Positions 53,312 through 55,459 of a DNA stretch of 64,000 bases are shown here, piece after piece. The position numbers and the translations under genes were made by a program. Below the pieces are notes generated by a model. That model worked only from the letters and a program-made list of their open reading frames with translations. It searched no databases and was not told the origin of the DNA. This stretch comes from Fodinicola acaciae. GTDB lineage: Bacteria > Actinomycetota > Actinomycetes > Mycobacteriales > HKI-0501. Position 1 is the stretch's first letter, and every line of letters starts with the position of its first letter. The DNA is taken from positions 3,041,235 through 3,105,234 of the forward strand of contig NZ_WOTN01000001.1 in the NCBI RefSeq assembly GCF_010993745.1, read 5' to 3'.

Positions 53312-55459
53312 CTAACGTCCCCGGCCGGACCGCTGTCCACGGACCCGCGACGGACCGCCACGCGGGTCGGCGTGATCGGCATCCCATTTGGCGTACGCGT
53401 CGACGATGTCGCTGACCAGCCGGTGCCGTACAACATCGACGCTGGTGAGCCTGGAGAAGTGCACGTCCTCCACACCGTCCAGGATGTCCTGCACGACCCG
53501 CAGGCCGGAGGTGGCACCGCCAGGCAGGTCGACCTGCGTCACGTCGCCGGTCACCACGATCTTGGCTCCGAAGCCCAGCCGGGTCAGGAACATCTTCATC
53601 TGCTCCGGCGTGGTGTTCTGCGCCTCGTCCAGAATGATGAACGCGTCATTGAGCGTGTTGTGGGTGAGCAGGTATTCCTCGGTGACGTACAGCGAGTCGG
53701 CCGCCGCCACCTGGATGCACACGGCGTCGGCCCGGCCGGCCGGCTCGATGCTGTCGATGAACCGCATCGGCCGTCCGCCACCGGTGGCGTCGTACTTCTG
53801 CCGCTTGCGTGCCAACCGGAACGGCTGGATGCCTTCCGGCAGCCGGATGTCGATGACGTACGCGTCGTGGTTGTCGCCAACCTCGCGGCCCTTGGCCATG
53901 CCGGGCTTGCTGCCCTTGGCGGCCCGGCAGCGCACATATGCCACGCCACCGAGGGAACGGACCAGCGCGATCACGTCATCGCGCAGCAGCGACGACGTCG
54001 TCGTGTACTGAATCCGGCATGTCCGGTTGGCCTGGGTGACCGGACCGCCGTCGGTGTCCAGCAGGCCCTGCAGCAGCGCGAGCCGGATCTCGGCGGTGTT
54101 GTGCAGGTAGACCTCGGGGATGTATTTCGAGTGCGACCTGGTGCCAAGCAGCCGCAGTGCCCGCAGTGCGCCGGTGACCGGATTCTCCAGCGTGATGACC
54201 TCACCAGGCTCACGCACCCGGTTGAGGACATGGTCCACCCGGCTTTCCTGCCGAACCTGGATGCCTTGCACGGCGCTTTCGAGCGCCAGCGCGAGCTCGG
54301 GATCGTTGGTCGAGAACGACGGGGTCGTCGAGCCGGTGATGCAGCCGTCGCCGAGCAACAGGCCCAGTGCGTACGGGTCCATCGGGACTTCGCGCTCCGG
54401 GTGCTGGACAGGCCCGGTCAGCATCGGCAGCTCGTACCGATGCGCGCGCGCCGCACGCAGATTGCCGATCATTTCCTTGGTCTCAAGCACGCGCCACGGC
54501 CTGTCGCGCCGTTTGTCCGCCGCCGTACGCACCGTCCAGAGGTGCTCGCCGCAGCAGAGCACAGAGGCTCCGTCCTGCGCGGTCACTCGATAGATGTCCT
54601 TCTCACCCTGTGGGTAGACACCGAGGACCGGCGTCGGCTCACCATCGGAACCGACCACCAGATCGCCGACCCGCAGATCACCGATTGGTCGCCATCCACC
54701 GGGCGTCAGGACCGTCGTCGACCGCGGATGCGCCCGACCACGCATATATGCCAGTGGCGCGACTTCGATGGTGCCGGCCGACATCAGCTTCGGGATCGAC
54801 TCCGGGTCGAGCATGTCGTGCAGCGCGTCGTAGAGCGGCCGCAGATACGGGTCGATCTTCTCGTACAGCGTGCCGGGCAGATAACCGAGTCGCTCGCCGG
54901 CCTCCACCGCCGGCCGGGTCAGGATGATCCGGTTGACCTGCTTGGCCTGCAACGCCTGCACGGCCTTGGCCATCGCCAGATAGGTCTTGCCGGTGCCGGC
55001 CGGGCCGATGCCGAAGACGATCGTGTGCTTGTCGATCGCGTCGACGTAATGCTTCTGGTTGAGCGTCTTCGGCCGGATCGTACGGCCGCGCCGGGACAGG
55101 ATGTTGAGCGTCAGCACCTCGGCCGGCCGCTCCTCGGTGCCGGCCTCCAGCATCGCCGCCGTGCGGCGGACGGTGTCCGGAGTGATCTGCTCGCCGCGCT
55201 GCAGCACGGTCAGCAGCTCGCCGATCAGCCGCTCCGCGTATGCGTTGTCGGCCGGCGCGCCGGTGAGAGTGATCTCGTTGCCCCGTACGTGCACATCGGC
55301 CTTGACGTACTGCTCGATGGCGGTCAGCACCTCGTCGCGGGAGCCCAGCAGGCTCACCATCCGATGGGTGTCGGGCACGACGATCCGGGTCTTGGCCTCG
55401 GCCGCTCCGTTGGCACGGGCTGTGTCGGTCGTCTGAACGTTCTCGGATGTGTTGGCCAT
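53312..55459 (-). CDS. phoH: PhoH-family ATPase with an inserted intein
   Basis: The host protein is PhoH, a P-loop ATPase with an RNA-binding PIN-less form, Walker [10 protein letters not shown] at about 152-160 and Walker [13 protein letters not shown] at 606-617. The 715-residue precursor is 359 residues too long for PhoH because an intein occupies residues 243-601, inserted between MRGR and TLNDAF just before Walker B. After splicing the mature protein has 356 residues, a normal length. ATG 55459 is used; ybeY follows after 9 bp. If splicing fails, the ATPase site would be separated. PhoH is thought to act in phosphate-starvation or RNA metabolism. Confidence 0.93.
53657..54733 (-). other. 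Intein in PhoH: class 3-type with LAGLIDADG homing endonuclease
   Basis: Residues 243-601 of the precursor. It begins [16 protein letters not shown] (Ala, not Cys or Ser, at position 1) and ends in THN followed by Thr. The triplet that marks class 3 inteins is present: Trp308 in GEHLWTV (block B), Cys581 in AVCIQV (block F position 4) and Thr599 in LLTHN (block G). Block F Cys should be the first nucleophile in place of position 1. Two DOD endonuclease motifs, ALGLLLGDG (364-372) and [10 protein letters not shown] (462-471), keep their acidic residues, so the homing nuclease may be active. Class is by pattern; splicing is untested. Confidence 0.88.

Follow-up and report, generated by a model that had tools for sequence, protein, structure and literature searches.

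A predicted mobile class 3-type intein in the phoH gene of Fodinicola acaciae and its same-site relatives in actinobacteria and viral contigs

The ybeZ-type phoH gene of Fodinicola acaciae contains a long in-frame insert, and the question raised by this locus is what kind of element the insert is and whether it acts on its own behalf or on that of its host. The window, i.e. the whole stretch of 64,000 nucleotides that was analysed, carries the gene on the minus strand, as it does every other feature located below. The open reading frame including the insert (53312..55459) encodes 715 residues plus a stop codon, is read through without internal stop and matches the Pfam PhoH model in two stretches (E 1e-89). 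The N-extein (54734..55459) comprises residues 1-242, ends in ...YMRGR and includes the motif GPAGTGKT (54983..55006, checked at the codon level), which we take to be Walker A. The C-extein (53315..53656) starts with TLNDAF and carries the Asp-Glu pair of IILDEAQ (53624..53629), presumably Walker B, as residues 10 and 11 past the intein junction. Directly 3' of phoH lies ybeY (52829..53302; Pfam YbeY, E 5.2e-40) and, on the same side, a CNNM/CorC gene; the 5' side holds genes for a beta-lactamase-family protein, a HIT protein and a LacI-type regulator. Judged from its gene content, the locus is a housekeeping ybeZ-ybeY neighbourhood, and no phage gene was found among the seven phoH neighbours scanned. 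The same genome has a second PhoH-like gene without insert at the matching place, and a search with a 41-row profile (E up to 10) detected no further member of the PhoH intein family in this genome.

The insert occupies 53657..54733 (protein residues 243-601) and measures exactly 1077 bases, or 359 codons, in frame between the flanks ...APLAYMRGR and TLNDAF. A preliminary description of the window had proposed a 359-residue insertion at this junction, just ahead of Walker B; its coordinates proved exact to the base, and intein-free homologues join at the two ends. The splicing (HINT) domain is divided into an N-terminal half with blocks A and B (54398..54733, intein residues 1-112, boundary approximate) and a C-terminal half with blocks F and G (53657..53776, residues 320-359), between which a LAGLIDADG homing endonuclease domain is recognised by Pfam LAGLIDADG_3 and by fold matches (53777..54397, residues 113-319, approximate). 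The intein begins with Ala1 (54731..54733, codon-level check), so that no N-terminal nucleophile is available. Block B contains Cys61 at position 7 (54551..54553, codon-level check), giving CxxH in place of TxxH, His64 at position 10 (54542..54544) and Trp66 at position 12 (54536..54538). Block F provides Cys339 at position 4 (53717..53719), the predicted nucleophile, and block G provides Thr357 at position 5 (53663..53665), with the penultimate His358 and the terminal Asn359 at 53657..53662; the first C-extein residue, Thr+1, is encoded at 53654..53656. In protein numbering the signature reads Ala243, Trp308, Cys581, Thr599, His600-Asn601 and Thr602, as the earlier reading of the sequence had it, and each of these residues was confirmed codon by codon, as were His64, the presumed Walker B Asp and the two endonuclease Asp residues described below. 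The window copy thus displays blocks A, B, F and G, the block B His, the His-Asn end, Thr+1 and the HINT fold, by which inteins are recognised. Class 3 is defined by Trp B:12, Cys F:4 and Thr G:5 (PMC5222942, PMC3196547), and this WCT triplet is present here as Trp66, Cys339 and Thr357 together with the non-nucleophilic Ala1 and Thr+1. Its sequence marks the insert as an intein that bears the class 3 signature and has kept a conserved endonuclease, and splicing is predicted. The AlphaFold2 model built with 41 aligned family members (mean pLDDT 73.2, pTM 0.63) shows the two-domain fold of PI-SceI (Z 19.2, rmsd 5.1, 324 aligned), and its splicing domain matches 6bs8, the class 3 DnaB intein (Z 9.7, rmsd 3.9, 117 aligned); LAGLIDADG endonuclease folds match model residues 113-318 (Foldseek, VIA-align). 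The pLDDT falls below 50 at residues 345-359, and with such low values at blocks F-G the geometry of the active site is not readable from the model.

The collected loci were searched with the pattern MRGR...DEAQN, which yielded 121 filled PhoH loci (112 distinct inteins), 17 empty ones, some being the same gene repeated, and 32 belonging to neither group, i.e. other genes or off-pattern sequences. Trp B:12, Cys F:4, Thr G:5, His B:10, the penultimate His and the terminal Asn are invariant in the 112 inteins, and the first C-extein residue is Thr in 111 and Ser in one. Ala occupies position 1 in 96 of them. The other 16 (L046, L051, L063, L121 and 12 more) have Ser there, keep the full class 3 signature and offer a natural test of whether position 1 can take part.

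The insert is not a chance feature, since phoH is uninterrupted at this site in the one congener and the one other genome of the family that were compared, whose N-parts are 90% and 84% identical to that of the window. Their empty sites agree with the joined flanks at 81/90 bases for the congener, which reads SLNDAF, and at 76/90 for the family member. Contig 53 of the congener (G001) also has a class 3-type intein, an element distinct from the PhoH intein; the P-loop gene that carries it is spread over two reading frames (L008/L012), apparently as a broken copy, and may be a terminase, which is a guess. Across the host order, a PhoH match (E 1e-60) was obtained in 120 of 121 genomes and the insert in 16 of these 120, fifteen in one piece and one (G461) as a 305-residue intein missing part of the endonuclease. 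The matches of the remaining 104 end at residue 242 or 243, except in G488, where the match ends at 212; as the C-extein falls under the E 1e-60 threshold, an unrelated insert at the site would escape notice in these genomes. In one genome (G402), a 44% identical intein-type match extends across the PhoH junction positions within a 1435-residue frame (C42:90303-91343); the phoH match of that genome stops at residue 243 and lies elsewhere. Within the host class, the intein is matched at E 1e-60 in 25 of 394 genomes. The insert stands at the same junction in 107/107 PhoH-type matches (E up to 1e-20, frames of at least 150 residues), a count in which two are the window gene itself and some others repeat one gene. 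Filled and empty phoH genes occur side by side within genera g3, g5, g141, g142, g165 and g169. A contig scan of GTDB r220 returned 226 candidate stretches, 177 of them relatives; the best 80 of the 177 all lie in PhoH at the same junction and span Streptomyces, Lentzea, Amycolatopsis, Pseudonocardia, Kutzneria, Saccharothrix, Actinoallomurus, Glycomyces and others.

The same site is also filled in sequences classified as viral. A pattern scan of IMG/VR gave 171 stretches, 170 of them encoding relatives, and among the 80 of these that were analysed only one, L195 (IMGVR_UViG_3300029915_000731, a contig of 100,340 bases), shows MRGR or DEAQN in its forward frames. L195 encodes a PhoH whose class 3 intein occupies the same site, with junctions FMRGR / AQP...THN and 56.8% identity to the window intein over the aligned positions. 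A scan for the F-MRGR-AQP junction recovered L195 again together with three contigs of 32,768, 65,267 and 24,923 bases, and three of these four contigs came up again when filled downstream junctions were sought; the Tyr-for-Phe version of the junction scan found none in IMG/VR. The viral nature of the four contigs is that of the IMG/VR classification, and one of the four inteins is seen in its first 74 residues only. Empty phoH sites were present in at least 120 IMG/VR stretches, so that filled sites look like a small minority. The L195 intein is sister to 24 bacterial PhoH inteins (FastTree local support 1.0). Two other viral PhoH inteins, L287 and L290, fall apart from the bacterial family in the maximum-likelihood tree and may stem from a separate invasion of the site, but a tree that unites all PhoH-site inteins is not rejected either (AU p 0.324).

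A search of 50,697 named phage records at E 1e-3 gave matches to the PhoH intein in 776, all below 60% identity; the phage link asserted earlier is borne out to this extent, some of these matches possibly resting on the endonuclease alone. The accompanying statement that class 3 inteins are uncommon does not hold against the 1701 reported in nr, 82.5% of them with LAGLIDADG motifs, according to PMC7891396. The commonest labels among the phage matches listed are terminase and helicase. The best named match is Mycobacterium phage Phrappuccino (40.8% over 359 residues), whose protein is labelled terminase in one of its records and DarB-like in a second. Five pairs of records (H1/H2, H7/H8, H10/H11, H31/H32 and H36/H37) are named 'DarB-like antirestriction' in RefSeq and terminase or helicase in the GenBank copies. 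The phage proteins so labelled are unrelated and intein-bearing (terminase, helicases, SNF2), and the label has probably spread as an annotation via the intein. Where the PHROGs profiles for terminase large subunit (19299, 15, 36964), DNA primase (510) and helicase loader (50) hit the PhoH of the window, the match is essentially confined to the intein; these profiles apparently include intein sequence and can give proteins a wrong name. The sole 'PhoH'-labelled record among the phage matches listed, that of GX15bay (QBQ74860.1; L120, MK557849.1, 3017-5839), was rejected as a named phage counterpart of PhoH: Pfam at E 1e-3 finds intein parts only, PHROGs assigns no PhoH family, and the name probably follows from the PhoH-like intein.

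The state of the endonuclease bears directly on mobility. Pfam LAGLIDADG_3 scores 37.2 bits against a cut-off of 22.5, and the two LAGLIDADG motifs with acidic residues that had been noticed beforehand are indeed there, as LGLLLGDG and LLDTDG with Asp129 (54347..54349) and Asp228 (54050..54052) respectively. The endonuclease of the window copy appears intact by sequence. Each of the two positions is Asp in 109 of 112 PhoH inteins, and both are kept in 108; at least one is lost in the other four (L038, L055, L071 and L140), so that endonuclease activity is not universal in the family. Three members are shortened, to 305 residues in L140 (from G461) and 331 in both L038 and L039, and L140 and L038 lack endonuclease Asp(s); these may possibly represent steps toward mini-inteins. 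In 120 close pairs (median dS 0.33 to 0.57), which share sequences and are therefore not independent, the median dN/dS of the endonuclease is 0.121 (range 0.061-0.505), next to medians of 0.058 for the splicing domain and 0.078 for the N-extein. The endonuclease domain evolves under purifying selection. That the window copy has kept splicing and harbours an inactive endonuclease, as a dead or dying intein, is accordingly rather unlikely: the four relatives with a lost or deleted Asp speak for such decay, and this copy could be inactive without visible change, but its two Asp and its LAGLIDADG domain are intact and pairwise dN/dS is low across the family. The intein tree and the extein tree of 32 taxa, hand-picked from 110 usable, are mutually rejected (AU p 7.8e-10 and 2.7e-6). 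One row, L089, carried 100 unknown residues; on the 31 taxa left after it was dropped, the AU p values are 0.032 for the extein alignment and 0.00088 for the intein alignment, with SH p 0 for both. The window intein clusters with ten others at UFBoot 86 and the corresponding extein cluster has UFBoot 14, so that the placement of a donor failed. The PhoH intein is nevertheless recognised as a mobile element by the same-site family, the presence and absence within genera and the conflict with the tree of the host protein.

Taken as a whole, the element is very probably a mobile class 3-type intein of actinobacterial ybeZ/phoH, predicted to splice itself and to home. From the residues present we infer chemistry of the kind described for class 3 (PMC5222942, PMC7891396). 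The 715-residue precursor, presumably inactive as a PhoH, would splice itself. Cys339, aided by His64 and Thr357, would attack the Arg242-Ala1 bond to form the class 3 branched thioester, Thr+1 would then accept the N-extein, and cyclisation of Asn359 would free a ligated PhoH of 356 residues. Once excised, the intein is expected to work as a LAGLIDADG endonuclease: it would cut intein-free phoH at the conserved site coding for MRGR/TLNDAF...DEAQ, and repair of the cut gene would copy the intein in.

The preliminary description had also suggested that splicing could be a control point of PhoH, and a residue that might lend itself to this is Cys61, three residues ahead of the block B His. Cys stands at position 7 of block B in 100 of the 112 PhoH inteins, with Ser in its place in 11 and Thr in one. 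In the literature searched, PMC6195587 and PMC10663303 were the only papers found on class 3 inteins with TxxH and block B. According to the former, typical class 1 inteins have Thr at this position and DnaB intein 1 has Asp62; as PMC7891396 presents it, class 3 inteins generally have no conserved residue there, the characterised ones showing Gly or Asp. In the structure of the AceL NrdHF intein reported in PMC7891396, a Ser at position 7 can approach the scissile amide nitrogen to 2.9 A, and a modelled block F thiol the scissile carbonyl carbon to 3.0 A, both groups being near the scissile bond; by analogy, the two thiols of the PhoH intein are likely neighbours. A precedent for redox gating is the M. 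smegmatis DnaB intein 1, controlled through a Cys48-Cys118 disulfide (PMC6195587). On these grounds the PhoH intein could serve its host as a thiol-gated switch, with stress pausing PhoH maturation. We consider this unlikely. The redox partner is absent from all 112 PhoH inteins, where residue 47, aligned with DnaB Cys48, is Ile in 79, Val in 30, Thr in two and Met in one; Cys48 is present in 5/5 DnaB P-loop inteins compared. The Ser and Thr variants indicate that the position 7 Cys is replaceable and may have no role beyond the one that Thr has in class 1. Nor is the Cys peculiar to PhoH, since it occurs in 13 of 32 other class 3-type inteins from phages, a plasmid and viral contigs (30 readable); the viral PhoH inteins L287 and L290 are among the 13, L195 has Ser and L288 has Thr. 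An intact endonuclease and a sporadic distribution fit selfish homing, and endonuclease-bearing inteins are usually active and mobile, according to PMC6195587. Equally improbable in our estimation is the wider proposal of a CxxH branch of class 3 to which the PhoH inteins belong and which shuttles between virus-borne and bacterial phoH at one site, in which the second thiol pairs or binds metal with the block F Cys and so gates release of the YbeZ/PhoH ATPase by redox or zinc. If it were true, the switch would differ from the Cys48-Cys118 pair of DnaB intein 1 and would have evolved on the shared class 3 scaffold.

The class assignment was examined with a tree of the splicing blocks comprising 24 PhoH inteins, 12 other WCT inteins (11 phage, 1 plasmid) and 5 class 3 DnaB P-loop inteins, together with the phage SETP7 intein and 17 class 1 GyrA/DnaB inteins. 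An NCBIfam GyrA search served to gather class 1 inteins, a DnaB search yielded both classes within one protein, and intein starts lacking Ala1 or Cys1 were set by eye. The 41 WCT inteins split from the 17 class 1 inteins and SETP7 with SH-aLRT 78.5 and UFBoot 97, and the same group is kept with moderate support (SH-aLRT 82.2, UFBoot 86) when the seven signature columns are dropped. The class 3 type first proposed for this insert is therefore upheld by the full signature and by the separation of WCT inteins, with those of phages and DnaB, from class 1; the grouping agrees with the class 3 monophyly already published (PMC3196547). By phmmer, the native solved structure closest in sequence is gp41-1, an intein of class 1 (6qaz, E 2e-10), and the class 3 DnaB intein follows behind it (6bs8, E 3e-7); the gp41-1 match spans blocks A and B alone and leaves the class undecided; Pfam Intein_splicing (PF14890) gave no match to the PhoH intein in this genome. 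A class 1 or class 2 intein merely resembling class 3, with for instance direct attack by Thr+1 without Cys339, is rejected as highly improbable: gp41-1 likewise has Thr before His-Asn and Ala1 is common to class 2, but the WCT triplet does not vary in 112/112 relatives, the tree keeps the intein among WCT inteins even without the signature columns, and class 2 was known from KlbA only as of 2011, according to PMC3196547.

PhoH inteins of class 3 are already published. Those of M. fortuitum (OBK00716) and M. xenopi (EID13626) are aligned in Fig. 6a of PMC6195587 and M. smegmatis PhoH has an intein according to PMC7360933; by these descriptions the mycobacterial PhoH inteins share the host protein and the class of the window intein. 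The relatives of family f2 (L022-L025), which may be mycobacterial, are 65-67% identical and at the same site, and in all four block B position 7 is Ser, against Cys in the window intein. The M. smegmatis DnaB intein 1 (6bs8) has the WCT triplet, Ala1 and the HINT fold in common with the window intein, but it is inserted at a P-loop, has no endonuclease, and carries Cys48 and Asp62 where the window intein has Ile47 and Cys61. The phage class 3 inteins of terminases, helicases and SNF2 proteins are full-length and combine WCT with LAGLIDADG like the window intein, but they reside in other host proteins and at other sites, many at P-loops. The viral L195 intein occupies the same site and differs by its viral contig and its Ser at position 7. 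New here are this copy, the breadth of the family, the four viral same-site members and the CxxH pattern. No description of that pattern was found in the literature searched, outside of which lie most subscription journals and the logo figure of PMC7891396, and no literature on a Streptomyces PhoH-like intein was found within the same limits on journals.

The single copy in the window is ordinary, and the family is the more useful object. A phage origin of class 3 inteins and their traffic was proposed by Tori and Perler in 2011, as reported in PMC3196547. One conserved phoH site is filled in many actinobacteria and in four viral contigs, while close relatives have it empty, as do at least 120 viral stretches, and this makes the proposal directly testable. 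The common block B Cys, for its part, would provide a one-residue test of thiol-gated class 3 splicing beyond DnaB.
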